A stretch of DNA of 44,627 nt from Halostella limicola (GTDB lineage Archaea; Halobacteriota; Halobacteria; Halobacteriales; Natronoarchaeaceae), in contig NZ_RCDI01000009.1 of NCBI RefSeq assembly GCF_003675875.1, positions 1-44,627 of the forward strand, in the 5' to 3' direction. The notes beneath the pieces were generated by a model that was given only the letters and a program-made list of their open reading frames with translations, was not told the DNA's origin and made no database searches. The first letter of the stretch is position 1. Each line of letters starts with the position of its first letter. Both the position numbers and the translations under genes were made by a program. Shown here piece by piece: positions 28,162 to 44,556 of the stretch.

Positions 28162-28232
28162 GAGCGCCTGAAACGTGTGAATTAGCTCTATTGGCTCTAC
28201 TTTCGTTTAATCCAATAGCCGAAACCAGACTT

Positions 28233-29342
28233 ATGGGGGTCGACGCTGTAGGGGAAGCACGGAAGATGGAACCAGAACCTGACGGGGCTAATCCCGGGGG
28301 TTACACCCTCGAAGACGCACTCCAACGACGCCTCACTACCATCGAGAGCGGCACCTACGCGAATAGCCTCGCGACGGCCGTCGCAGACTTCCGCGATCGC
28401 GTCGTCGGGCACACCGGGTTTCCGATGTATGATGTTGACGAGGATCAATGTCGCGAGTACGCGCACGCGCTCCACGAGGCCGTCCGTGAGGACGAGCTCG
28501 CCGCGTCGACGACCCGCACCTACTACGCGAACTTCCGGGCGTTCCTCTCCTGGTGCGTACGCGACGGCATCATCGACGCGAACCCGGCCGAGCGGAACCG
28601 GGCGACGGACCCACTCCCCAAGACCGAGGACGACGTTGACCGCCAGTTCTGGGATCCACTGGTTCGCCAACGGTTCCTGCGGTACATGGACGGGCAGGTC
28701 GACCGGACGCTCGACGATAAGACCGACCACGATCGACTCCAGATAATGCGGGACCGCGCCCTCGCGTACGTCATCGGACTCTCCGGAGTCCGCGGTGCGG
28801 AGATCCTCCGCGATCCAGACGACGAGCGACGCGAGGGCCTGCGGTGGTCTGATGTCGACCTTGACCGCGGGATACTGGAGGTCCTTGGAAAGAGCCGGGA
28901 GCGAGAGACGGCCCAACTCCCGACGCCCGCGGCCGAACGCCTCGAACGGTACCGCGACCAGCTCGAGCCGGAGGATGACTGGCCGGTGTTCCCGACGCTC
29001 CACCCCAGCACGCTCGCCCAGCAGTTGGACGTGCCCGGCGAGGACGATCGCGTCGACGAGGCCCGGGAGCGAGGGCTGTCACTCCCCGCGATGTCCATCC
29101 AGGCTGGCCGGAAAGCAGTACGAAAACACTCCGAAGCGGCCGGTCTTCCGCCCGGAGACGACGAGTATCTAAAACTCCACGGCGCACGCCGCGGTCTCGG
29201 CGACGAGCTGTATCGGGAAAAGGCCGAACTCGCGCAGGAAGTCCTCCGACACAAGAGCGTCGAGACGACGCACAAGGCCTACTCCGACGAGCGGACCGCG
29301 CAGATCCGGGAGGACGTCGAGGACGTGCTCGGGTTAGACTAG
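28233..29342 (+). CDS. int: Tyrosine recombinase (SNJ2-type integrase), 369 aa
   Basis: N-terminal SAM-like arm (about 25-125), then a catalytic domain with Arg187 (GVRGAE), Lys220 (LGKSRE), His316xxArg319 (HGAR), His340 (LRHKS) and nucleophile Tyr350 (HKAYSDE). This is the full R-K-HxxR-H-Y set of an active enzyme. The ATG at 28233 is chosen because TTTAA (28206-28210) lies about 25 bases upstream, fitting leaderless transcription; ATG 28266 is an alternative. It integrates or excises the circle at a host site. The small membrane ORF downstream fits this integrase neighbourhood. Confidence 0.92.
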   Translation: MGVDAVGEARKMEPEPDGANPGGYTLEDALQRRLTTIESGTYANSLATAVADFRDRVVGHTGFPMYDVDEDQCREYAHALHEAVREDELAASTTRTYYANFRAFLSWCVRDGIIDANPAERNRATDPLPKTEDDVDRQFWDPLVRQRFLRYMDGQVDRTLDDKTDHDRLQIMRDRALAYVIGLSGVRGAEILRDPDDERREGLRWSDVDLDRGILEVLGKSRERETAQLPTPAAERLERYRDQLEPEDDWPVFPTLHPSTLAQQLDVPGEDDRVDEARERGLSLPAMSIQAGRKAVRKHSEAAGLPPGDDEYLKLHGARRGLGDELYREKAELAQEVLRHKSVETTHKAYSDERTAQIREDVEDVLGLD

Positions 29343-30204: not shown

Positions 30205-32676
30205 TCAGAGCACCTCCTCAACACCGTCCCAGTCGGCCTTGATAGCCTTCTCCCCGATGGAGGTGAGCTTGAACACTCCATTTTCCTTCTCGACACAGTG
30301 GCCAAGCTTCCGAGGATCGTTGATGTACTTGTACACCGTCCGCTCCGCGACGACGTCGGTCGCCTCTGCAATATCACCACCGCTGGTGAGCGTCCCGGAT
30401 TCATCGCGATGAATCTCTTCGAGAATCCAGATGTAGTTATCGCGGCGCTCGGTATCCTCGTTGATCCAGTGACTGACCGCCTTCGGTATCCCGAACTCCT
30501 GCATGACGCGCTTCCGTTTCTTCTCGTCGGCTTCAGACGATGCGAGGAACGAAAGCCGCCGTTCGGCGTTGTCCTCGACGCGGCGTAGCGACAGGTCGCT
30601 CGGGATATCGTGTTCGCGACGACGCTCCAGCGCTGCGTCTATCACCTCGTCGTCGACAGTGTCGCCCGCGTTGACCGGGCGCGCGTCGCCGGGAAGATCG
30701 CTGGGGAAGAGGTGCCACTGCCCCAACTCTGGCGTGACCTCGCTTTCAGTATCCAGCTCGTACACGGTCCCCGAGAGAACGTCTATCCAAAGGTCGCGGT
30801 CGCCGTGTTTCTTGAGCCACCCATCTCCGTGGTACTGCCGGACACGAGCGCCCCATGACTTGCCGTAGCGGTCCCGCCAGTGTTCGTCGCCGGAACCGAG
30901 ACCGCATCGTGCCCCGCGCCACTGTATCGGGTAGTCCTTCCGACCGTCGTTCAGCAGCATTCCCCACCCGGTACTGAAGCTCTGGAGTTGCTCCTTCTGG
31001 TCGTGGCTGAAGTTAAACGAGTCGTCGAGCGTCTTTATCTCCTCTGCGCCCAACTTCAGCAGGATCTTGATGGGCATGTTCGTCCGGACTGCCTTGGACA
31101 CCTCGTTCAGCTTCTGTGTCGATCCGATGAGCATCACTCGCCTCGATCCGCCCTGCTGGGCGATGTCGTAGAGCGTGTTCCGTAGCGCCTTAATCTGCTT
31201 CCGGTAGTCGGTCTGACCGAGCTTCGACGGTGCGAGGTTGTCGATCTCCCTACTCTCCAGTGCCGCCCGCGGAAGCCGCGGGTGCTCGTCCCGGATACGG
31301 AAGATGAACCGGTACCAGAGCGTCTGAACAAGGTACTTGAGTCCCTCGTTCCGGTCCTTCAGGAAGTTACAGTTGAGGACAGCCACGCGGTCCTTCTTGA
31401 ACTCCTCAACGAGGTCCAAGTTGGTCTCCGCACCAGTGTCCTCGATAAGCCCCTCGCCGGCGAGCATCATCAACGCGTCCGCGCAGTCCTCCAGCAACGC
31501 GTCTTCGTCCATCTGGTAGTGTATCTCCCGGATCTCCCCCTCTGATGCCTCGACCTCTTCAGCGTCGGCGAGGATCTTGTTCCCGTCCTCGTCCTCCCGG
31601 AACTCGTCGTCGGCGATCTCCTCGACGGTGATGGTGGCTTCGACCTCTTCCGCGTACGTCTTGAGCTTCGAGACGAGGTCCTCGACTTCACCAGTCGTTT
31701 GTTGAACCTCGTTGAGCGCCTTCCCGACGCGGCGCATCGTGTTCTGGTCGTTCGTCGTGACGCCGGCGAGGTGGAGGATTAGCTTCGGCGTCAGGTCGTC
31801 GATGCCGATGGTAAACCGCTCGTAGTTGGACGGGAGTACCTCGGGAACGCCGCTGGTTGCCGGGACGTACACGACGGTCTCGTAGCCTTTCGGCCCCTGG
31901 CCGAACTCCTCCAGATTCTCCTTGATCCCCTCGTCGTCCGACGGCGTCGCGATCATCGGCGTCTCGTTCCGGCCGTCGTCGTAGCAGGAGAACCACTTGT
32001 ACGGGTGCTCATCCTTGAGGTTCCCACAGATGCTGGCGATCGTGGAGTCCTTCCCCTGACGGGGCAACGCCACGACGAGGATATGCTCGCAGTCCTCGTG
32101 GCTGATGACGGGCGCGACGTCGTCGGGGGACTGCGCCTGGTCGGCGCGCATCCGCTTGCGGCCGATGGGCGTGATGTCGCCCTGCTTCGAGGACGCACCG
32201 CCCGGGAGGTCCAACTGCTGGAGCGTCACGGGTGCGTATGGCGTGGTGTCACGGATCGAGCTGAGGTAGCCCAGCTCGATAGCGAGACGAACCTGCGTCT
32301 CGAACTCGTTGCCTGCGTCTGGCGGTGTCTCTCCCCGATCGCGGATGTCCATCTGCTTCTGAAACGCGAGTTTCGTCTCTCTGTCGACCACGTCGAGGCC
32401 GTCCGTCGACGGGGAGAGAACGTCGGAAATGTCGGGGTGGTCGCGCAGGTGCCAGTGGATTGCGGTGAGGAGGTAGTCGATCGGGAGCGGCGAGTCCCCG
32501 GCGAGTGAGTTCCGGGCCGCGGAGATAAGCGCCCGGACCGTTGCCTCGTGTTCGGTCCGTTGTTCGTCTGCCTGCTGTTGGATCCCCGCGTTCGTAATAC
32601 TCCGCAGTGCGGCCTGTACCTCTTCCTCGTCCGTCGGCTGGATGTCGTGGTATGGATTCGTCTCTGGAGTGCTCAT
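30205..32676 (-). CDS. Large P-loop ATPase (HerA/TraG-like DNA translocase, inferred) with winged-helix tail, 823 aa
   Basis: Residues 198-213 (HILVVALPRQGKDSTI) are a P-loop in which GKDS replaces the usual GKT/GKS, after a strand. Downstream VAVLNCNFL and RVMLIGSTQKLNEVS resemble Walker B-like and sensor strands, with SREIDNLAP between. The C-terminal 90 residues are a winged helix (GDIAEATDVVAERTVYKYIND). Overall size and order suggest a HerA/FtsK/TraG-family pump with DNA-contacting tail. It is last in a long run of membrane-protein genes and is the likely motor of transfer or packaging. Divergent enough that the family call needs a profile search. Confidence 0.68.
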   Translation of the reverse strand: MSTPETNPYHDIQPTDEEEVQAALRSITNAGIQQQADEQRTEHEATVRALISAARNSLAGDSPLPIDYLLTAIHWHLRDHPDISDVLSPSTDGLDVVDRETKLAFQKQMDIRDRGETPPDAGNEFETQVRLAIELGYLSSIRDTTPYAPVTLQQLDLPGGASSKQGDITPIGRKRMRADQAQSPDDVAPVISHEDCEHILVVALPRQGKDSTIASICGNLKDEHPYKWFSCYDDGRNETPMIATPSDDEGIKENLEEFGQGPKGYETVVYVPATSGVPEVLPSNYERFTIGIDDLTPKLILHLAGVTTNDQNTMRRVGKALNEVQQTTGEVEDLVSKLKTYAEEVEATITVEEIADDEFREDEDGNKILADAEEVEASEGEIREIHYQMDEDALLEDCADALMMLAGEGLIEDTGAETNLDLVEEFKKDRVAVLNCNFLKDRNEGLKYLVQTLWYRFIFRIRDEHPRLPRAALESREIDNLAPSKLGQTDYRKQIKALRNTLYDIAQQGGSRRVMLIGSTQKLNEVSKAVRTNMPIKILLKLGAEEIKTLDDSFNFSHDQKEQLQSFSTGWGMLLNDGRKDYPIQWRGARCGLGSGDEHWRDRYGKSWGARVRQYHGDGWLKKHGDRDLWIDVLSGTVYELDTESEVTPELGQWHLFPSDLPGDARPVNAGDTVDDEVIDAALERRREHDIPSDLSLRRVEDNAERRLSFLASSEADEKKRKRVMQEFGIPKAVSHWINEDTERRDNYIWILEEIHRDESGTLTSGGDIAEATDVVAERTVYKYINDPRKLGHCVEKENGVFKLTSIGEKAIKADWDGVEEVL

Positions 32677-32697
32677 AGTATGAAAAACGGGCAGTGG

Positions 32698-34416
32698 TTA
32701 GTCTGCGGTCGTCGACGGCGTCGAACCGGGCGCGCTCGGCAACTCCGGCCGGTCCGGCATCATCTCGTAGGCGTCCCGCGGGACGTTGACGCCGCGGAGG
32801 TCCTCCGTGGGGTCAACCTCGGGGAGCTGGAAGATCGGTTCGCCGTGCGCGCCCATGAACCGTTCCGAGAACCGGGACTGCATCTGACTCATCTCGGGGA
32901 GCCGGCGCTTCGACGCGGGGTAGACGAGTGTCAGTTCCACTTCCTCTCCGGACGCCGTCTCGGTCATGAGCGTCGTCTCGGCGAGCGAGTGTTCGTCCTC
33001 GACCATCGCCCGGTACCGCTCCCGGACCAGCGCCGGGTCGTGGCCGAGGTTCCTGCCGAACTTCGTGTCGGACGCGTTCGTGATGACCTCGTACGCCAAC
33101 TTGCTCTTCGTGACTATCTCGTCCGGTGAGCCTTTCACCGTCTTCGAGATCTCCCGGTTGATCGAGGGGATCTCAATGTTCTCCAGGTGTCCCGGGAGGT
33201 TGGGCTTCATCTGCTTGAGGTTCCGGGCGTACTGCTCCATCACGGACGGGCTGACTTCCTCGCCCTGCGTGGTCATCTCCCAGAGTCGCTGGGAGAACTC
33301 GTCGATGAACTCCTCGCGGTCGTACGACGCGTACGAGCGCCCGGCCGCGCGACCCATGTAGCAGGTCACGTCCGGCGTCTCGACAGTCTTCACCAGCGCC
33401 ATCTGTGCGTCCCAGTACTCCGCTGCCGACGGCTCGCGGTGTCGCTTGATACGGCGCGAACGGAGCCGTGAGAGGGTGTAGAACGTCCCCAGTGCAAGAA
33501 GCGGGCCAGTGCCGAAGAGGATGACCGCGGCGGTCGCAGGCCCTATCCAGATGCCGGTGTACACGAACTGGAGTCCGACGGCGATAGCGTAAGGAAGCCC
33601 CAGCCGCCACATGAGGGCGCCACTCTCGAAGGCGGCGGAGAGGTGGAGCGTGAACTGCTTCAGTTCTTCAGCGAGAGCGACCTTCCACGGGACGTTCTCC
33701 GTAGCCTCTTCACTGCTGTCGTCGTCTGCCTCTGCCGTTTCCGGCGAGTGCTCGGTGCCTTGGAACGACGGTTCTGCATCTTCGAGCCGATCCGCAAGGC
33801 GCTCGGCGCCGGTCGCGGCGGCAGTGAACGCCCCTTCGCTGAAGTCGGAGTCAGGAAGCGCTGCAGGGTCCGCTTCACCGTCGCCAGCCTCGGAGACCGA
33901 CCGGTAGTCGATACCCTCTGCGTCGTGTGACTGCCCGTCAAGTGCTTTGTCGAGATAGTCCGCGATCTCCGACTGTGCCATCTCGCTCGTCACGATGACG
34001 GGGTGCATGTGGTCGCTCGACCGCATCTCGTCGGAGAGTTGCTTCACCGACGTGGTCAGCCATCCCGTCATGTTCGCCGCTTGCCGGGCCGCCCAGCTCC
34101 GGCGAAGGCCGATGTACCGGTGGTAGAGGACGACCGACACGACCGGCGGGAGCCACCAACTCTTCAGGATGCCGACGAGCGTCTTGAAGAACCAGTACGA
34201 GGAACCGCTGCTACTGACGTTCTGTGTCGCAACCGTCCATACTCCATAGGTCACAACCGTGATGAAGACGAACAGGACCACCTTCGCGATACGTGACGGC
34301 GCCGAACGCGGGTCGCCGAACACCTTTCGGAGGACGTACTCCACCTTCGACGACCGGCCGACCTGGTCGGCCACGTGATCGTCGGCCTCGGTATCGTCGT
34401 AGTTATCGAGCGACAT
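32698..34416 (-). CDS. Four-span membrane protein of the transfer block, 572 aa
   Basis: Hydrophobic helices at about 43-62 and 74-98, and a second pair at about 275-320 (LGLPYAIAVGLQFVYTGIW, AAVILFGTGPLLALGTFYTL). Between and after them lie long acidic soluble regions that would face the cytoplasm. Immediately upstream of the ATPase (21-base gap), so it may couple the motor to the membrane. No sequence family recognised. Confidence 0.75.
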   Translation of the reverse strand: MSLDNYDDTEADDHVADQVGRSSKVEYVLRKVFGDPRSAPSRIAKVVLFVFITVVTYGVWTVATQNVSSSGSSYWFFKTLVGILKSWWLPPVVSVVLYHRYIGLRRSWAARQAANMTGWLTTSVKQLSDEMRSSDHMHPVIVTSEMAQSEIADYLDKALDGQSHDAEGIDYRSVSEAGDGEADPAALPDSDFSEGAFTAAATGAERLADRLEDAEPSFQGTEHSPETAEADDDSSEEATENVPWKVALAEELKQFTLHLSAAFESGALMWRLGLPYAIAVGLQFVYTGIWIGPATAAVILFGTGPLLALGTFYTLSRLRSRRIKRHREPSAAEYWDAQMALVKTVETPDVTCYMGRAAGRSYASYDREEFIDEFSQRLWEMTTQGEEVSPSVMEQYARNLKQMKPNLPGHLENIEIPSINREISKTVKGSPDEIVTKSKLAYEVITNASDTKFGRNLGHDPALVRERYRAMVEDEHSLAETTLMTETASGEEVELTLVYPASKRRLPEMSQMQSRFSERFMGAHGEPIFQLPEVDPTEDLRGVNVPRDAYEMMPDRPELPSAPGSTPSTTAD

Positions 34417-34418
34417 GG

Positions 34419-35834
34419 TTAGTCACCTCCAGTCGGCGTTCCGCGACCGGTTCCCGACGGCGACGGGCGTTCAGACCGGCTCGTCGTCGGGATAGCGGCC
34501 TCTTCGCCAGTTCGGGTGCGGTTGAGTTCTTCAATCAGTTCTTCGACGCGCATCCGGGTCTTGCGGACCTCATTGCCCCGCTTGTACTCCTTCTCGGCCA
34601 CACGGAGCGCTCGTTCGATGTTCGACAGTGCCGTCGCGGCGTTGAGCCGCGGGTCGACGAGCAGTGGGCGGAGCCACGTTTCGTCGCGGAGCGTCCGGTG
34701 CGTGACCGGGTCGACCTGCATTAGCTGCTCAACGCCGTGGTGTGCGTACACGATGTTGCCGTCCTCGTCATACAGGATGTCGCCGTCTTCGTCCTTCGCG
34801 ACGATGCCCTTGCACGCTATCTCTACCATGTCGTCGACCGTCTCGATGCCCATCTCCGATCGCCAGTAGCGGGCGGCGTTCGTCCCGATCTCCGCGATAT
34901 CCGAAATCTTGTGCTGGGCGGCCGCCTTCCGAGACCGCTCGTAGTCCTGCCGGGCTGCCTCCCGCTGGAGTTTGGATATCGGCATCGAGAGTTGCTGGAG
35001 CGTGAGGATCCACCCGTACTTGCGGCTCCAGTAGATGCTGATGATCGCGATGATCCCGATGACTTCCACCCACTGGAGTGGGTTCATCACCTGCGCGATC
35101 TTCAGTCCGACGTACTGGGAGATGCGGTTACTCCAGAAGTTCTCGAACAGTTGCGCTTTCTCTTCGGTGTCCTGTATCCACTCCTTCGTGTCTTCCGGGG
35201 TATCGCCGTATCCTGCGGCCGACGCGGCCGACGACGTGTAGTCGATAATCGGCTTCCACGCGGGGTTGATGTCGGTCGACGCCGAGACCGCCGTGTCGGT
35301 GGCGTACAGGTCGACCGTCTTCTGGGAGTCGTCCGGGAAGAAGAGCTCGAGCTCGTAGAAGCTCGTCGTGTTACGCGGGGCCGCGTCGTCCGCGTACGAA
35401 ACCCGGACCACGCTCCCGTCGCCCACCACGTCAGCCGAGGCTTTCTCTTGCGGGATGCGTGCTGCCTCGACCGGGTGTGACAGGCTGAAGGTTGCGAAGC
35501 CGCCGCTGGTGTTGAACGACTCGTCGGGTTGGTCTATCTGGACGTCGACGTAGTCCTCGTCGGGCATGTCCGGTGTGATCCGGACCTGCGAGGCGTCTGT
35601 AGGCCCGGTCTGGTTGCTCTCACCCCCGGACTCGGTCTCGTTTTCCTGCACCGCCGGTGCCGGTGCCCACCCTCCGCTGCTGGGAGTGGTGGACTCGGGT
35701 GTAGGCGCCGTTGCCGCGGCCGCGGACGCAGGGACGAGCGCGCTCGCGAGGACGAGCACAATCGCGATAGTGGCGAAGGTCAGTCTCCGGCGGCTGCCGG
35801 ACGCGGTGCTGTCGGTGCGTAGTTGCTGTAGCAT
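34419..35834 (-). CDS. Secreted/membrane-anchored transfer-block protein, 471 aa
   Basis: Sec signal (hydrophobic 20-40, ending SAAAATA). A Thr/Pro/Ser-rich linker (42-80) with N-sequons leads to a beta-rich outer domain (82-185), a membrane helix (about 254-270, VEVIGIIAIISIYW), and a basic helical cytoplasmic part with an RTRMRVEELIEELNRTRTG end. Two bases from the next gene, so co-translated. A bitopic scaffold with domains on both sides of the membrane. Unrecognised. Confidence 0.78.
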   Translation of the reverse strand: MLQQLRTDSTASGSRRRLTFATIAIVLVLASALVPASAAAATAPTPESTTPSSGGWAPAPAVQENETESGGESNQTGPTDASQVRITPDMPDEDYVDVQIDQPDESFNTSGGFATFSLSHPVEAARIPQEKASADVVGDGSVVRVSYADDAAPRNTTSFYELELFFPDDSQKTVDLYATDTAVSASTDINPAWKPIIDYTSSAASAAGYGDTPEDTKEWIQDTEEKAQLFENFWSNRISQYVGLKIAQVMNPLQWVEVIGIIAIISIYWSRKYGWILTLQQLSMPISKLQREAARQDYERSRKAAAQHKISDIAEIGTNAARYWRSEMGIETVDDMVEIACKGIVAKDEDGDILYDEDGNIVYAHHGVEQLMQVDPVTHRTLRDETWLRPLLVDPRLNAATALSNIERALRVAEKEYKRGNEVRKTRMRVEELIEELNRTRTGEEAAIPTTSRSERPSPSGTGRGTPTGGD

Positions 35835-35849
35835 CAGTGTGGTCTCCTG

Positions 35850-36983
35850 TTAGTCAGAGGTGGTCGCGCTGGTCCCGTTGCTGTCGGGCGACTGATTCGG
35901 CCACGGCTGCATCCCCGTACCCGACGCTTTGCCGTTCCGTTCGGCAACTTCCTCGGGATCCATGTCCATCAACTGGTCGGCCTGTTGGGACGACATGCCG
36001 GTCATGAGCGGGAGGAACATCGCCATCCACGAGCGCTGGCGCTGGCTCTGGAAGTACTCCTGGTTCTCCAGCATCTCCTCGTACTCCCGAACCTGATTAC
36101 TGAGGACTGCGTTCAGGCGCCGCTCGTGCTTCAGGTCCGACTCCAGCTCCTCCTTGTCCTTGTGGAGCTGGTCAATCTCCGACGTCGACTTCCGGTCGGA
36201 CGGGACGAACCGGTAGTCGTAGTTCTGGTTCGGGTCGTCGACGGTCTTGCGCTGTTTGGTGTGGACGGTGATCTTGTCACGGTCGCCCTCGACGGTCGTC
36301 GACTCGTCGCTGATGGGGATACGGACGATCGCCCGGTCCGTGGCGAGGCGGTAGTCACGGCCGCGGAGTTCCGCCTCGTCAGCGTTGAACTTCCGCCGCC
36401 AGAAGATACCGAGTACGCGCTTCTTGTGGAACAGCGGCGCTTCGAGCGCGACCGTCTCGTTCTTGTCGTCGTCGTAGATCGGACGCATCAGCGCCTTCTC
36501 GCAGTACATCGTCTCCTCTTCGGTCCCGTTCTTGGACTCATGGATCACACTGAGTTCGGTCGCCTTGCTCTCCTGGCGGCGGTAGACGAACGCCCCGCCC
36601 CACATGAGGACGAGTCCGAACATGATGACCGAGAGTTCTTCGAGGAACGCCGTATCCCCGGGACTCCCCGTCTTCGCGTACGTCCACGCGGCGTAAGTGA
36701 ACAGACCAACCGAAAGGGTCGCCGCGAGGAAGAACAACTTCGCGGTCGGCGTCCACCGCTTCGGCCACTTCCGAAGCCCGATAGACTCGTTCCTGATGTC
36801 GGGTTCGGCGTCCTCCCGAAGCCGTTGTTCAGTGTCGTTCTGGCTCGACGCGTCGCCGCGGCGCCATGCGAAGATCTTGCCGCCCAGCCAGATGCAGGCG
36901 ACCACGCCGAGGATGATCGCGACGGCGAAGAGGAGTGTCTGTGTGATGCCGCCTGAGAAGAGGGCGAGTGGCGTGTAGTTCAT
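35850..36983 (-). CDS. Membrane protein with long coiled coil, 377 aa
   Basis: Helices at about 12-32, 82-100 and 125-145. A cytoplasmic beta-rich domain follows (about 160-260) and then a coiled coil (about 265-320, EIDQLHKDKEELESDLKHER onward). C-terminus MTGMSSQQADQLMDMDPEEV. Start overlaps the stop of the 246-aa gene by one base. Probably an inner-membrane structural component with a coiled-coil arm for the ATPase or DNA; inferred. Confidence 0.75.
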   Translation of the reverse strand: MNYTPLALFSGGITQTLLFAVAIILGVVACIWLGGKIFAWRRGDASSQNDTEQRLREDAEPDIRNESIGLRKWPKRWTPTAKLFFLAATLSVGLFTYAAWTYAKTGSPGDTAFLEELSVIMFGLVLMWGGAFVYRRQESKATELSVIHESKNGTEEETMYCEKALMRPIYDDDKNETVALEAPLFHKKRVLGIFWRRKFNADEAELRGRDYRLATDRAIVRIPISDESTTVEGDRDKITVHTKQRKTVDDPNQNYDYRFVPSDRKSTSEIDQLHKDKEELESDLKHERRLNAVLSNQVREYEEMLENQEYFQSQRQRSWMAMFLPLMTGMSSQQADQLMDMDPEEVAERNGKASGTGMQPWPNQSPDSNGTSATTSD

Positions 36984-37723
36984 CAGTATCTCCCTCCAGA
37001 GTCGTCTTCGTCCTCGTCGTCGCTGGTGACGGCTTCAGTGGCCGCCTGAACCATCTTGGCCTGTTCGGGCGGCGGTGTCGTACTCACACCGCTACTTGCT
37101 GTCGTCGTGATGCCGTCGCCTTCGAGGTCTTCCTCGGTAAGCCCGAACTCGGAGAGGTCGATATCGAGTTCCTCCATCGTCTCGGGGTCGAGGTCGAGTT
37201 GAGTCGCTTCACTGGTCGAGGTGTTCGCGACCGCACGCCGGTAGAGTTCTTGCCCCTTGGCGAGGAACTGCCGCTCACCTTCGTCGTACTCCGTGAGCGT
37301 CTGGCGGAGAATGTGGCACTCGTGCTGGTTCGCAACGTCGTACAGCTCCGAGACGAGTTGGTCGCCTTCGTACTGCTCCATCAGGCGCTCGATAGTGTCC
37401 GTGACGGGCTTGCGCGTGAGTACGGGGCACTGAACGCCGTAGTTCGGGCAGCCTTCGCACGCGTCGGGGAACGCTTCCTCTGGTGTGTCCACGCCGCGGT
37501 GCGGGTACATCTTGTGCTTCGGGTCTTTCTGGAGTTCGGCGAGGCTCTGCTTGACCAGCGTCCGGACGCTCCCGTCGTGGTGCGTCGCCGTCTGTTCGAG
37601 GAAGAGGCTGATCTCCCACCACAGTTGGGAGTCGTCCTCGACGTGGTCGTGTCGACGTCGTAACTCCGAGCGGAGCTCGTCGAGTTCGGTCCGTTTGGGG
37701 CTTTGGTCGGATTGGGTACTCAT
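36983..37723 (-). CDS. Cytoplasmic four-cysteine protein, 246 aa
   Basis: Start 37723 (MSTQSDQSPK) overlaps the stop of the 90-aa gene (ATGA); an upstream frame start is rejected. Cys89xxCys92x6Cys99 (ACEGCPNYGVQCP) with Cys136 (HECHIL) could hold zinc or an iron-sulfur cluster. Mostly helical and acidic; no signal peptide. A soluble partner among membrane proteins, perhaps a coupling or DNA-processing factor. Not recognised. Confidence 0.75.
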   Translation of the reverse strand: MSTQSDQSPKRTELDELRSELRRRHDHVEDDSQLWWEISLFLEQTATHHDGSVRTLVKQSLAELQKDPKHKMYPHRGVDTPEEAFPDACEGCPNYGVQCPVLTRKPVTDTIERLMEQYEGDQLVSELYDVANQHECHILRQTLTEYDEGERQFLAKGQELYRRAVANTSTSEATQLDLDPETMEELDIDLSEFGLTEEDLEGDGITTTASSGVSTTPPPEQAKMVQAATEAVTSDDEDEDDSGGRY

Positions 37724-37992
37724 GGGTTTTCGGTGTTGGTGAGAAGGTCGGTTCGCGAGTCGATGCTGGCAAGCGGCCACGGGAGGTCGTGCGGGTCCGG
37801 TGGGTCGATAACCATCGTCTCCGCTGGCAGTTCTCCCTCTGGCCAGAGAACGACTACTGGGTAGTCTTCGAGGACGCGCTGGCGGACTGTATCGCCCGGG
37901 TCGAACGGGAGATCGTCGGCGAGGTCGCTGGGGAAGTAGACCTGCGTCGTGTTCCTGACCGGGTTTGCACGGCCCTCACCGAAGGAGTCCAT
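37720..37992 (-). CDS. Small protein, possible AbrB-like fold, 90 aa
   Basis: TTQVYFPSDLADDLPFDPGD with TVRQRVLEDYPVVVLWPEG resembles the swapped-hairpin AbrB/MazE pattern (strand, Pro-Ser, Leu...GD, strand). A GGAGG Shine-Dalgarno lies 8 bases before the ATG at 37992. It follows a regulated interval with a perfect palindrome, so it may be a local regulator at the head of a sub-operon. Confidence 0.6.
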   Translation of the reverse strand: MDSFGEGRANPVRNTTQVYFPSDLADDLPFDPGDTVRQRVLEDYPVVVLWPEGELPAETMVIDPPDPHDLPWPLASIDSRTDLLTNTENP

Positions 37993-38047
37993 CGTGGCCC
38001 CTCCGGGTGCGGTACCTGTCTGGTGTGAACGTACATTGCTTGGTCAT
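37976..38047 (-). CDS. Possible 23-aa upstream ORF
   Basis: ATG at 38045-38047 opens 23 codons (MTKQCTFTPDRYRTR...) that overlap the 90-aa gene start in another frame. It would lie about 9 bases into the transcript predicted from the TTTAAAC box at 38079-38085. It could regulate translation of the next gene, or be chance. Confidence 0.25.
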   Translation of the reverse strand: MTKQCTFTPDRYRTRRGHDGLLR

Positions 38048-38059
38048 GTGACTGGTTTC

Positions 38060-38085
38060 GTTGAAACTGTTTCAACCGTTTAAAC
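38060..38085. promoter_or_regulatory. Internal promoter with perfect palindrome
   Basis: GTTGAAAC (38060-38067), one base, GTTTCAAC (38069-38076) is a perfect 8-bp dyad. A GTTTAAAC (38078-38085) next to it is a good TATA box for minus-strand transcription towards 37992. The dyad would sit just downstream of the TATA box, an effective repressor position. Confidence 0.6.
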
Positions 38086-38111
38086 GCAGTTTGAGAAACG
38101 AACGAGCCGGA

Positions 38112-38429
38112 TTAGTCGCGGACCCACCACGGATCCCAACCTCCGACTCGGCGGCGGACGGACGACCCTTGCCCTTCGTAATTCTCGCGGGCGTGCGAGG
38201 AGTTCTTCAGGACGAAGCTGAAGAATATCGCACCCATCACCATCCCGATCGCGTAGAAGCCCTGCGCGATCGTGATGAGCGCCCCGATGAACCAGAGGAA
38301 CGCCATGAGTGCCCGCCAGATGCCGTCGAGGAAGCCCACTTCGGCGGAGCGACGTGTGAACAGCCAGTAACCGCCGACCATCGAGAGGAGAACAGCAGCC
38401 GGGAAGAGGACCCAATCAGAGGCCATCAT
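38112..38429 (-). CDS. Small membrane protein, 105 aa
   Basis: Three hydrophobic stretches (about 5-24, 37-56, 58-75), then a basic tail (HARENYEGQ...RRRVGGWDPWWVRD). Start overlaps the previous stop (ATGA). The chain of small membrane proteins here (38112-40406) resembles the membrane-channel part of a secretion apparatus in layout, without recognisable homology. Confidence 0.75.
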   Translation of the reverse strand: MMASDWVLFPAAVLLSMVGGYWLFTRRSAEVGFLDGIWRALMAFLWFIGALITIAQGFYAIGMVMGAIFFSFVLKNSSHARENYEGQGSSVRRRVGGWDPWWVRD

Positions 38430-38644
38430 CGGCTACCCTCCTGTTCCTCACGGCGCTTTCGGTCTGACCACCGGCCGTGGCTGGCGTTCAGTACGTAATC
38501 GCGGACGAACGGGCCGGCGAGTGCAACAAACACGATGATGGTGGCGAGGAACGCGGCGAGGAAGAACCCGCCAGGGTTGAGTAGGCTCACGAGGACGATG
38601 AACCCCGCGAGACCGTACGCGAACCACTGTAGTATGCTTGCCAT
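38426..38644 (-). CDS. Small two-span membrane protein, 72 aa
   Basis: Helices at about 6-22 and 26-46 (FFLAAFLATIIVFVALAG), then a basic tail DRKRREEQEGSR. This layout is like VirB2/VirB3-sized proteins of type IV secretion, but the similarity is only size and topology. Overlaps neighbours at both ends. Confidence 0.72.
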   Translation of the reverse strand: MASILQWFAYGLAGFIVLVSLLNPGGFFLAAFLATIIVFVALAGPFVRDYVLNASHGRWSDRKRREEQEGSR

Positions 38645-39945
38645 TATCGATCCCTCCCGAGTACTGCGCCAGTTGCTGGTAGTGCTGCGAGCTGTCCCAT
38701 GGGTTCGATCTGCCCGAAGATGTTGAGGTTCTTCAGGTCGGCCAGCGAGCTCCGGAGCGACTGAACGTCGTACTTGAACTTGTCTACCGGGCTGGGGTTG
38801 GCCGTGAACTTGACCTCCGCGTCGCGGTCGTTGAAGACGAACTGGACCTTCCCGTCAAGTTCCCGGACGAACACGGCGTCGTCCGCTTCCTGATTAACGG
38901 GGCGCCAGGGACCGTCCTCTGACGTTCGGTAGACCGCGCGCCACTCGTCGATAGAGCGATTCATCGACTCGTTCTCTAACGGAATCGTCACGTAGCTGCC
39001 GTTAGTTTCGGGCGCGGCGAACTGGTACTCTCGTTGTTCGAGTTCCTCGTCGCCACTGAGGGGATTGAGGCTACTAAGACGGTCAACGATGCCCTCGGCC
39101 TGTCGCTTTTGTTCGTCTCGCCACGACGGGACGATGACCGTCGGCTTGCTCGGGGCGAACGTGGCCTCAGAGTTCGCCGGGAGCGTGAACGTGATCTCCG
39201 TGTATGTCTCCTGCGTGTCGAAGTTGGTCACGTCGTGCCACGCTGCTGTCGTCGTGCCGTTCATGCTCTCCACGTCGCCGCGTTCAGTCGCGGGCATCAT
39301 CTCGTCGGAGATGCGGACCGTCACGTTGACGCAGTAGCCGTTCGGGTTCTCCGCTTCGATCCGGTAGAACGCGTCACTCTCGGAGACGATGACGCGGGTG
39401 TTCGACTCCGTTGAGGTGGCCTCGCCGGTGTCGTTGAACTCCGCGATCGTCGAGTTGTCCCGGAACGCGTCGTGGACGACTTCCGTCGAGCAGTCCGCCG
39501 CTGCGGGTGAACTACCGGCCGCGGCGTTGCCGACGCCCATCGTCCCGACGACGAGCGAAGTCACCACAAGCGTGAGGACGAGTAGCGTCCCGATTGAAGT
39601 CGATCCGCGCCGGTCACGGTGCGGGAGGCAACTGTCCCAGAGCGACTTGAGCCACTTCGCGCTGTCGGAGCCCCAAAGGGCTTGGCCGACGTGTTTGAGT
39701 CGCTCGACGTCGACGACCGACACGACCCAGACGAACAGGACGACACCAGCGAGCGGCGCGATGTACGTCCCTCCCGACGCCGCAAGGGAAATGAGGAAGA
39801 GGGCAACCAGCAGGAATATGGCCGACGTGAGGACGAAGAACAGCAGGTACTCGCCCTGGTGCCACAGTTCCCGCGGGTTCAGGTTCGAGATGCGCCGGCG
39901 CGCCGCGCCAGCTCGCTTCCGTCCGAACCTATCTCGTTGGGTCAT
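38644..39945 (-). CDS. Membrane protein with large outer domain, 433 aa
   Basis: Basic cytoplasmic start (RKRAGAARRRISNL), two helices (about 33-75), a third at about 114-136 (TLLVLTLVVTSLVVGTMGVG), then a roughly 290-residue outer domain rich in NxT/S sequons and beta strands. Two cysteines (near 151 and 207) could pair outside. The C-terminus is amphipathic. Likely a surface-exposed part of the apparatus. Unrecognised. Confidence 0.76.
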   Translation of the reverse strand: MTQRDRFGRKRAGAARRRISNLNPRELWHQGEYLLFFVLTSAIFLLVALFLISLAASGGTYIAPLAGVVLFVWVVSVVDVERLKHVGQALWGSDSAKWLKSLWDSCLPHRDRRGSTSIGTLLVLTLVVTSLVVGTMGVGNAAAGSSPAAADCSTEVVHDAFRDNSTIAEFNDTGEATSTESNTRVIVSESDAFYRIEAENPNGYCVNVTVRISDEMMPATERGDVESMNGTTTAAWHDVTNFDTQETYTEITFTLPANSEATFAPSKPTVIVPSWRDEQKRQAEGIVDRLSSLNPLSGDEELEQREYQFAAPETNGSYVTIPLENESMNRSIDEWRAVYRTSEDGPWRPVNQEADDAVFVRELDGKVQFVFNDRDAEVKFTANPSPVDKFKYDVQSLRSSLADLKNLNIFGQIEPMGQLAALPATGAVLGRDR

Positions 39946-40406
39946 TCGTCATCCCTCCGCCGAACGTCGAACTTCCCGGACGGCATCCCGAACGACGGCA
40001 TCGAAATGTCCGGGGTGAGCCACTTCCACGCTCGGTCGCCGTCGTCGGACCATCGGGAGACCCCAATGAACAGGAAGATCGACCAGAACAGGACAAACCC
40101 GACAGTCACCAACCCTGTGAATAGGGAGGTCCCGATCGACCAGAGGATCATGATGATGGCGCCAGTGACCTGGTCGTCTGGGTCCTCTGCTGACAGGGCG
40201 TTATTGGCGGCCTCGACGGTCACACTGTAGAACCAGTTCCCGATCTCCGCCGTGAGGGTGCCCTCCCGGGCGTAGTCCTTCGCGCCAGAGGCAATCTGCT
40301 TGATATCCTTCAGAGCCGCCTTGGTGGCCGCCATGATGAACTTGGGGAAGACTGCTATATCGCGTGGCATTCGGCGGATTTTCTCGCCGGGTGAGCGTCC
40401 TCCCAT
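39942..40406 (-). CDS. Membrane protein, 154 aa
   Basis: Start 40406 (MGGRSPGEKIRRMPRD) lies 2 bases after the previous stop; an upstream frame start would overlap that gene. Amphipathic basic N-terminus, hydrophobic hairpin at about 80-112 (VTGAIIMILWSIGTSLF, VTVGFVLFWSIFLFIG), polar tail. Stop overlaps the 433-aa gene start (ATGA). Confidence 0.74.
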   Translation of the reverse strand: MGGRSPGEKIRRMPRDIAVFPKFIMAATKAALKDIKQIASGAKDYAREGTLTAEIGNWFYSVTVEAANNALSAEDPDDQVTGAIIMILWSIGTSLFTGLVTVGFVLFWSIFLFIGVSRWSDDGDRAWKWLTPDISMPSFGMPSGKFDVRRRDDE

Positions 40407-40408
40407 GG

Positions 40409-40591
40409 TTACCTCCAGAACATCAGCATGTCTTTCAGCCGCCCCATCCATCCCTGAACGTGCCACTTCCGGCGCCGGAGCATCGTCTGGAAGCGGTTCT
40501 CGTGGGCCTGCTTCCCCGCGTCGCGTTTCTTTCGTGGATCGTACAGGCGGCCGTTCCGGTCCCGTTTGCGCCGTCTATCCTTGTGCGTCAT
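40409..40591 (-). CDS. Highly basic small protein, 60 aa
   Basis: MTHKDRRRKRDRNGR, DPRKKRDAGK and LRRRKWHVQG: over a third Lys/Arg, the opposite of the acidic proteome. The start overlaps the 253-aa gene by 17 bases. Such basicity suggests DNA binding or compaction, or membrane-surface binding, in the transfer or packaging process. Confidence 0.7.
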   Translation of the reverse strand: MTHKDRRRKRDRNGRLYDPRKKRDAGKQAHENRFQTMLRRRKWHVQGWMGRLKDMLMFWR

Positions 40592-41336
40592 TGCGGAGTT
40601 CCTCCTGAGTTTGGTCGAGCCAGATGGTCGAGCGGATGTCACACCGTTCAGCGTTCGCGAGGCTTTCCGCACCGCAGTACTGCCCGATGAGTTCAGCCTG
40701 ATACGACTGGTCGAGAGACTCGTCGTTCGCCATGCGGTCAGCGATGTCTCCGACGAGGTCGTCGGCATTCTTCGCCCCCTCGCCCTCGACTACCCAGGTG
40801 TGGTCGATGCTGCGGTTGGTTTCGTTCCACTCGCTCTCGTTCAGCGCCTGGAGAGAGGTGAGCGTGTTCGGATCCGTCGACTCGTTGAGCTCGCCGACGA
40901 CGTAGACCGTCTGCGGTTCAGAGTCATCGTGCGCGATGATGACCTCGTGGACGTCGTAGCCGGTCGTGACTTCCACCGAGTCGCGAGCGTTTATCTCCTG
41001 CTCGTAAGTCGACGCGTTCCCGTTGACCGCCTGCTTGAAGGCGACCGCCCGGTCCGCGTTGGTAGTGTCGTCGTTGCCCAGCACGTTGCCGACCTGCGAC
41101 TGTATCCGGGCGATTTGGCCTCTGACGCTGGAGTAGATGATGTCGATGCTTTCGCTCACCGACGACGGGATGATCCCGCTGTCCGTCTCGTTGGAGTCGC
41201 TACTCGACAGGAACCCGTCGATGGGGTCCGAATCGTTCGTGCTATCCTGAGCCGCCGCGACGCCGACGCCGCTCGGTAGGAGTGCGCCGACGAGTAAGAC
41301 GGCGGTCAGGACGGTGATGAATTGCTTGAGTTTCAT
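40575..41336 (-). CDS. Secreted protein of the transfer block, 253 aa
   Basis: Start 41336 (MKLKQFITVLTAVLL) gives a Sec signal peptide cleaved near AAAQD (residue 29). Upstream codons from a GTG at 41408 run through a hairpin and spoil the signal. The mature part is acidic with several N-sequons and two cysteines near the end (QYCGAES, AERCDIR) that could form a disulfide. Unrecognised. Confidence 0.75.
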   Translation of the reverse strand: MKLKQFITVLTAVLLVGALLPSGVGVAAAQDSTNDSDPIDGFLSSSDSNETDSGIIPSSVSESIDIIYSSVRGQIARIQSQVGNVLGNDDTTNADRAVAFKQAVNGNASTYEQEINARDSVEVTTGYDVHEVIIAHDDSEPQTVYVVGELNESTDPNTLTSLQALNESEWNETNRSIDHTWVVEGEGAKNADDLVGDIADRMANDESLDQSYQAELIGQYCGAESLANAERCDIRSTIWLDQTQEELRNDAQG

Positions 41337-41402
41337 GTGTACTGCGGGGTCGGAGTTGGTCAGTCGCTCTTCGCAGACGCCGATGTTATCCCGGCGTCGG
41401 AT

Positions 41403-41442
41403 GCTCACCAGCGGAGTCGAACCGCTGTATGCCTGCGTGAGT
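41403..41442 (-). ncRNA. tRNA-like T-arm/acceptor minihelix 3
   Basis: On the minus strand ACTCAC (41442-41437) pairs with GTGAGC (41408-41403). After a 9-base linker come CAGCGG (41427-41422), loop TTCGACT, and CCGCTG (41414-41409), which abuts the acceptor strand directly. Same architecture as minihelix 1 at 18414-18459. It lies in the 132-base gap between two operon genes, where it may serve as a processing or regulatory element. Confidence 0.42.
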
Positions 41443-41468
41443 ACGTCGAAAGAAGTCGTCGGGTGGCG

Positions 41469-41801
41469 TTAGTCTGCCAGCGCGGGGGAGATCTCCCCAT
41501 CGCCCGCTGGCGTGGACCGGGCGACGGTCGTCATGTACTCCTCGGCGGCCGCAACTGCTTCGGAGTACGAGGTTGGTCGCTCGACGAACTCCTCGTCGCC
41601 GTCGATCGTGGTCGTCGTGACTGCCCAGCGTCGGCAGCCAAGGTCGACCGGCCAGAGTTTCACCTCGTCGCCACCGTAGCCGTCGCCGCGTCCCTTCCAG
41701 CGTTCGAGCCGGAGGGAGCGGTTGGTTCTGTACCACTGCCCGTCGGGGTCCGGAACGCCGGTCCCGCGCCGGAGGTCCGCGAGACGCCTGAAGAGCGTCA
41801 T
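41469..41801 (-). CDS. Small soluble protein, 110 aa
   Basis: Basic first half (FRRLADLRRGTGVPDPDGQW, RLERWKGRG), strands (VKLWPVDLGCRRWAVTTTT), and an acidic helical end (SYSEAVAAAEEYMTTVAR). No signal peptide. Four bases after the glycoprotein gene. Possibly a cytoplasmic partner of it. Unrecognised. Confidence 0.68.
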   Translation of the reverse strand: MTLFRRLADLRRGTGVPDPDGQWYRTNRSLRLERWKGRGDGYGGDEVKLWPVDLGCRRWAVTTTTIDGDEEFVERPTSYSEAVAAAEEYMTTVARSTPAGDGEISPALAD

Positions 41802-41805
41802 CGCG

Positions 41806-42861
41806 TTACACCCCCGCCGCGCGGGTGGCCTCGAAGTTGTTGATGCTCAGTGCGTCGAAGAGGCCGTCGACGGGCATCAGGCTCATCGGGCTGATGAGCG
41901 AGATGCCGTAGACGTCGAAGGCCTGGCTGAAGCTGGCGCCACCGGTGAGGTCCACGTCGACGGAGTCAGTCGCGCCGTGGTTCATGATCTGCACCGCGGA
42001 AGAGCCACCGAGGTCCTCGGTGTAGACAGCGTACGTGTCGCTGGTGTTCGCCGAGTCCGGGGCTTCCTCGTAGTAGACCGGGACGGCCTCGCCGTCGACC
42101 ATCGCGGTCGCGGTCCAGATGCGGTCACCCGCTTCGGCGCTGGAGCCAGCAACCGGGAGCGGGTTCGTATCGTCGACAGAGTCCGAGAAGTCCTGTGCGA
42201 CACTACCGTTACCCAGCGCCATCACGACCGTCGTGTTCTCGGTGACGTTCTTCGTCGTCGAGAGGTCGGTGTAGTCCTCAGCGTGGGCGTACGGCAGCGA
42301 GACGTTGACACCGAATGCGCCGAAGGACTCGCCCTCGCTCAGGTCGACGATGTTGCCAGCGTCGACGTCCGAGGCGCTGACGTACTCGACGGCGTAGGAG
42401 TCGTCAGTCTCGACGTAGGCCGTGAATGAGGTGTTGTCGGGGCTGGAGACGTTGGTGTTGTTGTACGCCGTGACCTCGATCGTGACGTTGTCGTTGATGC
42501 CGCGTTCGAGGTCGGCGAGTTCACCGTGGTTGACGGAGACGTTGAAGTGCCCGTCGTTGTCGGTGCTGTTCCACATCACCGTCTCGGGCGTCGAGTTCGC
42601 GTAGACGAGGTCGCCCGTGCCGTTGTGGGCGATCTCTACTTTCGACTCGTTGGAGTCCGCCTGGTACTGCACGACTGTCGCCTGCGAGGCGTTCGCGGTG
42701 AAGTTGGTGATGGTGCTACCCGTCTGGAGCTCGGTCGTCGTGGTTGTGTCGTCCGTCGCGCTCGTGTCGATGGTCGGCGCGGCGGCCATCGCGCCACCGC
42801 TGATGACCGACAGCGCCAGTGCGACTGCGAGCACGCTGCTAATCGCTTTTCGAGAGTTCAT
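41806..42861 (-). CDS. Abundantly glycosylatable secreted protein, candidate major particle/surface protein, 351 aa
   Basis: Sec signal at residues 1-27 (AISSVLAVALALSVISGGAM, AAA). The mature chain carries about 16 NxS/T sequons, is Thr/Asp/Val-rich and beta-structured, and ends with a moderately hydrophobic stretch (VYGISLISPMSLMPVDGL). No S-layer C-terminal PGF-type signal. First full gene after the 210-base gap, upstream of the membrane-protein series, the position expected for a major pilin- or coat-like product. Function inferred. Confidence 0.75.
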   Translation of the reverse strand: MNSRKAISSVLAVALALSVISGGAMAAAPTIDTSATDDTTTTTELQTGSTITNFTANASQATVVQYQADSNESKVEIAHNGTGDLVYANSTPETVMWNSTDNDGHFNVSVNHGELADLERGINDNVTIEVTAYNNTNVSSPDNTSFTAYVETDDSYAVEYVSASDVDAGNIVDLSEGESFGAFGVNVSLPYAHAEDYTDLSTTKNVTENTTVVMALGNGSVAQDFSDSVDDTNPLPVAGSSAEAGDRIWTATAMVDGEAVPVYYEEAPDSANTSDTYAVYTEDLGGSSAVQIMNHGATDSVDVDLTGGASFSQAFDVYGISLISPMSLMPVDGLFDALSINNFEATRAAGV

Positions 42862-42974
42862 TGAGTTGTTGAAGGATGCGGTTGGTTAGTGGGCTGTACG
42901 TGCGCGGGGTCGGGAAGGGGAGGCGGAGGCACTCCTCCTCCGCTCCACCGTAGGTCTGATTGTTGGTAGGTCAT
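42858..42974 (-). CDS. Possible 38-aa leader ORF
   Basis: ATG at 42974 follows GGAG on the minus strand and its TGA overlaps the glycoprotein ATG as ATGA. Product starts MTYQQSDLRW and includes a Gly/Pro-rich run. Because the glycoprotein start has no own Shine-Dalgarno, this ORF may supply ribosomes by coupling. Confidence 0.4.
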   Translation of the reverse strand: MTYQQSDLRWSGGGVPPPPLPDPAHVQPTNQPHPSTTQ

Positions 42975-43071
42975 GGATGGGTCTCCTCGAGCTCGATGTC
43001 TGGTAATGAGAATCTTTCAGTCTCTACGCGAGTGAATCAGCCGATACGTCTACACACAGAACTGCCCACTC
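42862..43071. promoter_or_regulatory. Interval between spike gene and glycoprotein gene
   Basis: 210 bases. Contains GGGGAGGCGGAGGCACTC followed by CCTCCTCCGCTCC (42916-42947), an imperfect GC-rich stem-loop, and the 38-aa ORF. It is the only sizeable break in the 22.8-kb minus-strand block, so it likely ends the first transcript and starts the second. No clear TATA box is seen. Confidence 0.4.
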
Positions 43072-44556
43072 CTACTCGTTTGCTCGTTGAACCTCAAACA
43101 CGGTTCTCCCCTCGTTCACTTCGCCGTTGTTTGCCTTCGCAACGACAGTAAGCACCTGCCCTTCGAGGAGATACACTGATTGATTGATGGTAAGTGACTG
43201 TCGGTGATTTTGGCTCCCACTGAGATCATTCTCCGAGAACCGAACTTCGGATCCGTCGCGGTGGAGAGTGGCGTATATCTGATGGTCTGATGTTTGCCCT
43301 GTGAATTGCAGTGTGGCGTCGACATCGTACCAGCCCGTTGTGGGGGCAACGTAGCCATTATCTGGCTCTGAGAAAGCCCGCTCGAAGTCAGGAGCAACCG
43401 TGTCGAACGTCACCGTCTGCTCACTCCCGTCCATCGTTTGCGCTCCAAGTGAACTGCTCTTGAATATCCGAGCGTATGCTGACTTCGTAGCCGTTGGAAC
43501 CGCGACCCCCAGTGACCAATCATGATTCTCGTCCTTTCCGTCAACAATCGCCATCGGCTCGCCGCCCCAGTCGCCCGCAAGAATGTCCATATGGTGCATC
43601 CCCGTCCGACGCCACGTACTCTCAATGAGTGAGTTGTCACCTCGAAGAATTGGGGACGTGTCCACCTCGGACCAACTAAACGACGACGTAGAGAGGTCAG
43701 TAATGCGGAACCAACGGACTTGCGTATTCGTCTGGTCCTCGATTGGCAATTCGATATGGTGAGGGTAGACGTGAGCACGGCCAGCGCCACCTTCCTCCGT
43801 CGAATCTGCCCCAATAGGGCTGTTGGCGTGTTCTGTCCACGATCGTCCCGTGATACTACGTCCTTCATCAGCGTACCACAGGGTTGCTTGGCCGTTCGTC
43901 GTCGTGATTAGATACCAACGGCCTTCCCACCAGATAGGCGTCGGGTCGCTGTTGGCCGCCCCTGTGAGAATCGTCTCTTGTAGCGTCGGAGACGGCGTTG
44001 AATCGAACCCGTCGAACGTGTATATCTGGACGCCATTGCCCGAGTGTGACGGGAGTAGATACCACTGGTCGTCGATTTTTCGAAACAGTGAGTAGGAGTA
44101 ATTGACCCCATCGGCTTGCCCGTCGAGGACCGTCCCAGATTGATAGGACAGGGAATCGGGAGAGGGGCCTTTCCAGTAGCCGATATTCTGAGAGTAGCTC
44201 CCGTCGCCGTCGTCGTCATGCTTGATTTCGGCCAGGAGATGGATCGTCCCGTCGACTGCCCGCCAGAACGGGTCTGCAATGAATCTGACGTTGTTGAGGT
44301 CGGTTACGTCCGACGCAGACACAACAGGATTCGAGAGTTGCGGGTGTTCCTTCCACGCTGGCGAGCCACCGAACTCCCCACTCATCACGTCGTGGGGGTT
44401 GTTTTGCGAGAGGTCCGCCCGTGCGCTTCGCGTGGTGCGTGCTTGCTCTGTATGTAACGATTCGGTTTCGGACGGTGGGAGCTGATACCGCTCGTCTGAT
44501 TCAGCGAGCTCACCGTCGTCGTTCTTTTCCGCTCTCGAAAGGTCTCGGTTGGACAT
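43072..44556 (-). CDS. Spike-like protein: beta-propeller plus C1q/TNF-like jelly roll, 494 aa
   Basis: Residues 1-65 are hydrophilic with no signal peptide. Residues about 75-365 repeat a five-blade-propeller pattern (RFIADPFWRAVDGTIHLLAE, SYSLFRKIDDQWYLLPSHSG, DPTPIWWEGRWYLITTT), as in GH43/GINT1-type carbohydrate-binding propellers; the usual hydrolase acids are not evident. Residues about 380-494 have a C1q/TNF-like trimer domain: GYVAPTTGWYDVDATLQFTG, IYATLHRDGSEV, VYLLEGQVLTVVA. This two-part build resembles phage receptor-binding proteins. Its DNA is more AT-rich than neighbours, suggesting acquisition. Starts across the junction after a GGAGG Shine-Dalgarno. Confidence 0.8.
   Translation of the reverse strand: MSNRDLSRAEKNDDGELAESDERYQLPPSETESLHTEQARTTRSARADLSQNNPHDVMSGEFGGSPAWKEHPQLSNPVVSASDVTDLNNVRFIADPFWRAVDGTIHLLAEIKHDDDGDGSYSQNIGYWKGPSPDSLSYQSGTVLDGQADGVNYSYSLFRKIDDQWYLLPSHSGNGVQIYTFDGFDSTPSPTLQETILTGAANSDPTPIWWEGRWYLITTTNGQATLWYADEGRSITGRSWTEHANSPIGADSTEEGGAGRAHVYPHHIELPIEDQTNTQVRWFRITDLSTSSFSWSEVDTSPILRGDNSLIESTWRRTGMHHMDILAGDWGGEPMAIVDGKDENHDWSLGVAVPTATKSAYARIFKSSSLGAQTMDGSEQTVTFDTVAPDFERAFSEPDNGYVAPTTGWYDVDATLQFTGQTSDHQIYATLHRDGSEVRFSENDLSGSQNHRQSLTINQSVYLLEGQVLTVVAKANNGEVNEGRTVFEVQRANE

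Follow-up and report, generated by a model that had tools for sequence, protein, structure and literature searches.

What kind of element is carried by a 44,627-nucleotide contig of Halostella limicola (NZ_RCDI01000009.1; hereafter the window, meaning this whole stretch of DNA), in which a P-loop ATPase gene stands in line with many genes for membrane and secreted proteins? The first-pass annotation had described a near-continuous minus-strand block of 22.8 kb and suggested an undescribed DNA-transfer, plasmid-vesicle or virus-like system. The contig is one of nine in a 4.12-Mb haloarchaeal genome, and both of its ends hold an exact, identical 127-bp overlap, indicating that the window represents a complete circular replicon of 44,500 bp. 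Because this overlap closes the circle, the block crosses the junction: it descends from 8518 to 1 and continues from 44556 to 30205, a span of about 22.8 kb lying nearly all on the minus strand, so the block was borne out by the overlap and the open reading frame (ORF) map. The vesicle/packaging core occurs as a single copy in its own genome. Pfam gave almost no domain matches on the block beyond a protease and a propeller, and for that reason the block looks undescribed. In a tblastn search, however, the ATPase (30205-32676) matched 14 haloarchaeal plasmids, each aligned over 80% or more of the query, and pR1SE (NZ_KX687704) was among them, its ORF25 being 48% identical over 98%. Erdmann et al. 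are said to have found in 2017 that pR1SE moves in vesicles holding plasmid-encoded proteins. The window is very probably a complete plasmid of the pR1SE family (an apHPV), most likely working as pR1SE does.

According to PMC10818511, pR1SE of Halorubrum lacusprofundi R1S1 (KX687704) is the founder of the family and infects plasmid-free cells via plasmid-encoded membrane vesicles. Lücking et al. (2023) described 40 further plasmids and named them apHPVs (PMC10818511). The family is thus already named, with 41 published members whose sizes begin at 44 kbp, and the word "undescribed" was mistaken, whereas the choice of pR1SE as nearest precedent agrees with homology, gene order and gene boundaries alike. 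Vesicle transfer was reported for pR1SE, with its core proteins except ORF25 present in the vesicles (PMC10818511; transfer also PMC10384203), and vesicle dissemination is demonstrated for pR1SE only (PMC10818511). The published core comprises ORF6-9 and ORF17, 21, 23, 24 and 25, in the order cluster 1 (ORF6-9), variable region and cluster 2 (ORF17-25); the stretch between ORF9 and ORF17 is described as flexible, with genes rarely shared, and a plasmid counts as an apHPV when it encodes five or more of the six search proteins (ORF6, 8, 17, 21, 23 and 24) (PMC10818511).

With ORFs numbered as they follow one another in pR1SE, starting from either end of the core, we found homologues of all six search proteins in the window, both by BLASTP against pR1SE (E 9e-21 to 8e-86: ORF6 8e-86, ORF8 1e-23, ORF17 1e-36, ORF21 9e-21, ORF23 1e-37, ORF24 9e-28) and with profiles built from relatives in place of the hidden Markov models (HMMs) of PMC10818511. 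From the further core, ORF7 (E 1e-64) and ORF25 (E 0) were recovered by BLASTP and ORF9 by profile (leave-one-out E 7e-42), and ORF22 matched at E 3e-5. Identity to pR1SE is mostly 25-37% for the core proteins and 48% for ORF25. The genes are collinear with the published order, apart from two additional genes that separate ORF8 from ORF9. The host belongs to Halobacteria, and known apHPV plasmids such as pHTUR05 and pHALXA03 occur in genomes of its own class and order. A near-identical plasmid was not found in PLSDB, a set that may omit the records closest to the window's own genome; the window is either a new compact member of a known system or possibly one already tabulated in PMC10818511.

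The six-frame ORFs of 23 loci were all searched with an iterated HMM for each window protein. Since each profile began with the window protein and was extended with sequences from those very loci, independent support comes from gene position, which played no part in the search. In leave-one-out tests, each member was removed from its own profile and then tested as the best match of its locus. ORF25 was present in 23/23 loci, ORF7, 9, 17 and 21-24 in 22/23, ORF8 in 21/23 and ORF6, which several loci truncate, in 19/23. Most counts of 22/23 are accounted for by locus L067, whose sequence was taken from the wrong side of its ATPase. The leave-one-out match was best in its locus in all 23 cases for both ORF9 and ORF22. 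Inside the published flexible region, ORF13 (22/23 loci) and ORF14 (19/23) were also collinear, as were ORF19 and ORF20 (each 21/23) within cluster 2, with leave-one-out recovery of 22/23, 20/20, 21/21 and 22/22 for ORF13, 14, 19 and 20, respectively. Judged from these profiles and positions, the four genes appear to enlarge the conserved set to about 14, compared with the nine or ten published. ORF22 is perhaps a tenth core gene, absent from Table 1 of PMC10818511. The block is not a product of chance: more than 20 further haloarchaeal replicons carry the same genes, arranged alike.

Variable genes gather in two slots flanking ORF9, where gaps of more than 600 nt were found between ORF8 and ORF9 in 10/21 loci and between ORF9 and ORF13 in 8/22, and the run from ORF20 to ORF24 is hardly ever interrupted. 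One exception to the published ORF6-7-8-9 order was seen in L066 (1124-7448), which reads ORF7-ORF8-ORF6-ORF9 and lies on a plasmid that carries the ATPase twice (G383:C5). A second ATPase copy with one in-frame stop, possibly a decayed or duplicated apHPV, stands beside an intact one in another genome (G120:C3:56582-58219). Stretches resembling cluster-2 genes (ORF22 to ORF24) but with no ATPase match nearby occur at G031:C12:37658-37932, in a congener of the window's host, and at G239:C11:33451-36504, and are perhaps remnants or partial apHPVs. The ATPase was found in 27 of 391 evenly drawn Halobacteria genomes (7%; 17/86 genera), and 12 named loci were taken from genome contigs. Outside Halobacteria, a draw across phyla gave one match of 84 residues (E 2e-4) in a genome 79% complete, which we judged to be noise.

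The ATPase itself, ORF25, was modelled with AlphaFold from 24 homologues, using an alignment without pR1SE rows, with a mean predicted local distance difference test score (pLDDT) of 82. Foldseek placed HerA on top (E 6e-14), and VIA-align found Sulfolobus HerA nearest (4d2i; Z 27.4, 330 residues, 4.1 Å), followed by VirB4 (4ag5, Z 22.9), TrwB (1e9s, Z 19.8) and the STIV2 packaging ATPase B204 (4kft, Z 16.8). The model thus puts ORF25 in the HerA/VirB4/TrwB/B204 class, and published analysis of pR1SE ORF25 concurs with a HerA/VirB4-class fold (PMC10818511). The likeness lies in the core fold of residues ~143-616, while the N-terminal helical part and the C-terminal winged helix are ORF25's own, and in sequence HerA is almost without a match (E 0.24). 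The earlier statement that classical VirB hallmarks are lacking holds by sequence but not for the ATPase, whose fold is common to HerA, VirB4, TrwB and a virus packaging ATPase. In the P-loop, ALPRxGKDST (residues 203-212; window 32041-32070), Asp takes the usual Ser/Thr place, and G208, K209 and D210 are invariant in 24/24 homologues. Residues 742-813 were modelled as helix-helix-helix-strand-strand-helix, the winged-helix pattern, and weak matches to helix-turn-helix (HTH) families were found at the C-terminus in the window (HTH_11, E 0.005) and in several homologues; of the P-loop ATPase with a DNA-binding tail proposed at first, the ATPase and the tail domain stand, and DNA binding is a prediction. 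As far as we know, and within the available portions of the source, the Asp P-loop and the winged helix go beyond what PMC10818511 gives for ORF25, which is likely the packaging motor.

Considering that ORF25 resembles VirB4 and TrwB in structure, the block could instead serve contact-dependent, conjugation-like DNA transfer, with ORF25 as a VirB4/VirD4-type motor, ORF17-24 as a channel and vesicles as a by-product. ORF23 is reported to resemble secretion or pilus proteins (PMC10818511), and the similarly laid out pT26-2 plasmids, with a VirB4/B204-like ATPase, may encode an unknown DNA secretion system (PMC6972569). However, relatives were typed as non-mobilizable, no relaxase was found among 20 non-core proteins scanned with Pfam (a scan that did not take in every small ORF), and pR1SE moves without cell contact (PMC10818511), so we regard conjugation as unlikely. 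We think it still less probable that the element is a virus proper, of pleolipovirus type for instance, whose structural proteins have escaped recognition. While the pR1SE life cycle is chronic and virus-like (PMC10384203) and B204-type ATPases package some archaeal virus genomes, the plasmid holds plasmid-type replication and partition genes, searches of 50,697 phage records and of IMG/VR turned up no ATPase homologue, and no structural PHROG match was obtained in ten block proteins, of which ORF9 was also compared by fold with viral models; as far as tested, these results agree with the lack of phage head-tail hallmarks noted at first. A secretion or surface-layer island on an ordinary plasmid, with no part in DNA transfer, would explain why many block proteins are secreted or membrane-bound, but we give it hardly any credence, since many independent plasmids keep a conserved translocase motor within a closely packed, syntenic group of genes and vesicle transfer is documented for pR1SE (PMC10818511).

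If the window is an apHPV that works as pR1SE does, the Sec and twin-arginine translocation (Tat) routes of the host would carry ORF6, ORF7, ORF8 and ORF9 into or across the cell membrane; there these proteins would shape and coat a budding, glycoprotein-coated vesicle, with ORF7 trimming coat proteins. The membrane proteins ORF17, 19 and 22-24 would form a portal at the budding site and recruit ORF25, probably a hexamer, which would bind plasmid DNA, perhaps via its winged helix, and pump the plasmid into the vesicle. Released plasmid vesicles would then fuse with or enter plasmid-free cells, and MCM, ParA and integrase would serve replication, partition and occasional integration. Among these steps, loading of the plasmid by ORF25 seems the firmest, a portal made from ORF17-24 is less secure, and the choice of DNA by the winged helix is the most speculative. 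Gene content, gene order, homology, export signals, sequons and the predicted ATPase fold are what we observed for the window plasmid, and the ORF9, ORF22 and small-gene matches survive leaving their own locus out of the profile. Several points weigh on the other side. The window plasmid is known here from its genes, with vesicles and transfer carried over by analogy from pR1SE; ORF25 was not found in pR1SE vesicles and its packaging role is inferred even there (PMC10818511); the ORF9 model is poor (pLDDT 67) and lacks an informative structural relative; and with most core proteins 25-37% identical to pR1SE, against 48% for ORF25, function may have drifted.

All block genes described in the following lie on the minus strand, and much of what the first-pass annotation had said about their products was recovered. 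Hydrophobic segments occur in ten block proteins, where at least seven membrane or secreted proteins had been counted. The Tat-motif proteins are indeed three, namely 73-1050, ORF8 (1130-1969) and ORF7 (1893-3440), the last a subtilase and hence the expected protease. The glycoprotein corresponds to ORF9 (41806-42861), with 16 N-glycosylation sequons, besides ORF6 (3437-7180), with 25; these are the highest sequon counts here and agree with the predicted glycosylation of ORF6 and ORF9 in pR1SE, whose vesicle stability depends on host N-glycosylation (PMC10384203). The basic protein is encoded at 40409-40768 (isoelectric point 12) and the signal peptidase at 7195-7689 (TIGR02228, E 2e-8, under the curated cut-off). 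Of the two propellers, ORF6 was confirmed as PQQ-type by Pfam (PQQ_2, E 2e-40), while 43072-44556 was assigned from sequence pattern and relatives without a Pfam match.

Cluster 1 is preceded by g7709 (7709-8518). Its pR1SE homologue likewise stands immediately ahead of ORF6, as do those of 9 other loci (10/23; leave-one-out E 9e-39). The archaeal signal peptidase I-like gene beside ORF6 appears to be accessory, with a relative in 4/23 loci, some on the opposite strand. ORF6 is a 1247-amino-acid secreted beta-propeller, 27% identical to pR1SE ORF6 across ~1,130 residues, and is a candidate vesicle coat. ORF7 is a Tat-exported subtilisin-like protease (Peptidase_S8, E 4e-29; 37% identity to pR1SE ORF7). 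ORF8, a Tat-exported protein with 31% identity to its pR1SE counterpart, probably starts near 1888, and a NEP1-like fold has been described for it (PMC10818511). ORF9 is a Sec-exported, heavily N-glycosylatable surface protein; its AlphaFold model is fair on average, with residues 37-154 forming an immunoglobulin (Ig)-like sandwich. The ORF9 fold gave nothing at E <= 0.001 against viral models and generic Ig-like sandwiches only, at Z < 8, against the PDB, results that speak neither for nor against kinship with a viral spike or capsid protein.

The ORF8/ORF9 slot of the window holds two genes. The Tat-like gene at 73-1050 is matched by homologues occupying that slot in four loci (L010, L061, L068 and L076), whereas 43072-44556, which seems to encode a propeller followed by a separate C-terminal part, was found in 0/23 apHPV loci and has no PDB sequence match. 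Proteins similar to its residues ~64-360 occur in 42 of 292 Halobacteria genomes and on some bacterial plasmids, and in one plasmid the matching stretch touches a glycosyltransferase gene. The protein is a candidate surface ligand that might act in host recognition. Elsewhere, such slots are occupied by an FG-GAP repeat protein (L014) or by a calcineurin-like phosphatase (L063), and most slot proteins scanned gave no Pfam match. A small variable gene right after ORF9 (41469-41801) has two weak matches at the same position (E 0.01). As a tentative idea, for which the odds seem to us below even, a fixed set of ~14 vesicle/packaging genes, with the ORF25 winged helix picking the plasmid, could be combined with an exchangeable slot by ORF9, whose lineage-specific adhesins or enzymes, here propeller-like, would set host range as viral receptor-binding proteins do.

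Downstream, ORF13 (40575-41408; leave-one-out E 4e-43) is a secreted or membrane protein, the small basic protein recurs in 12/23 loci and probably has an internal true start, and ORF14 (39942-40466; E 7e-33) is a small membrane protein. In cluster 2, ORF17 (38644-39945; 33% identity to pR1SE ORF17) is a membrane-anchored ectodomain, ORF19 (38112-38429; leave-one-out E 3e-19) a small membrane protein with three hydrophobic segments, ORF20 (37720-37992; E 4e-22) a small acidic protein and ORF21 (36983-37780; 30% identity) a soluble protein. They are followed by the membrane protein ORF22 (35850-36983; leave-one-out E 1e-89), by ORF23 (34419-35834; 29% identity), with a secreted N-terminal domain, one membrane helix and a cytoplasmic tail, and by ORF24 (32698-34416; 25% identity), a membrane protein with a large cytoplasmic region.

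The rest of the plasmid encodes an MCM helicase (13861-15984, plus strand; Pfam MCM E 4e-76; NF040949 E 7e-178, under its cut-off), likely the replication protein, a ParA-type partition ATPase (26362-27171, minus; AAA_31 E 2e-41) and a tyrosine integrase (28191-29342, plus; Phage_integrase E 5e-9). A DNA methyltransferase-like protein (21163-21948, plus) also matches the MADS defence component mad2 (E 1e-12); it could be cargo with a role in defence or anti-restriction. GNAT, HNH and regulator proteins are also present. No strong 25-bp direct repeats were found beside the core, and a DNA search of 391 genomes gave no obvious CRISPR spacer-like match among the matches listed. The search for captured host DNA gave no long near-identical stretch in the plasmid's own genome, the longest match being 68% identical over MCM-gene DNA, and we call the plasmid compact because it lacks such cargo.

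Plasmid vesicles stand between plasmids and viruses, and pR1SE alone has been studied at the bench. The system itself is known; new here are a more finely drawn map of the core, a motor hypothesis open to test and, unless it is already tabulated, a compact plasmid of 44.5 kb with little cargo of foreign origin. With ~14 kept genes rather than nine or ten, this plasmid shows the first genes to delete, the ORF25 model makes plasmid choice and loading testable, and the ORF8/ORF9 slot is a concrete candidate for host choice.

Among known systems, the pT26-2 family of Thermococcales has a like layout of a membrane/secreted block with a VirB4/B204-like ATPase but no direct sequence conservation with pR1SE (PMC6972569). 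With pR1SE, also circular and with its integrase elsewhere on the plasmid, the window shares ORF6-9, 17 and 21-25 plus ORF13, 14, 19 and 20 in the same order. It differs in having MCM and ParA in place of RepH/Orc1, propeller-like and Tat-like genes of its own between ORF8 and ORF9, the lack of any large stretch of near-identical host DNA, and an ORF17 fused to extra N-terminal membrane segments. The apHPVs of Natrialbaceae and others, namely pHTUR05, pHALXA03 and those of Natronosalvus halobius (CP099999) and Halomontanus rarus (CP119801), hold the same core in the same order, and several of them carry MCM-type proteins, integrase and ParA as the window does. Their ORF8/ORF9 slots differ in content, with an FG-GAP repeat protein in pHALXA03, for instance. 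In several relatives a gene annotated as MCM follows ORF25 directly, but the full-length MCM of the window lies distant from ORF25.

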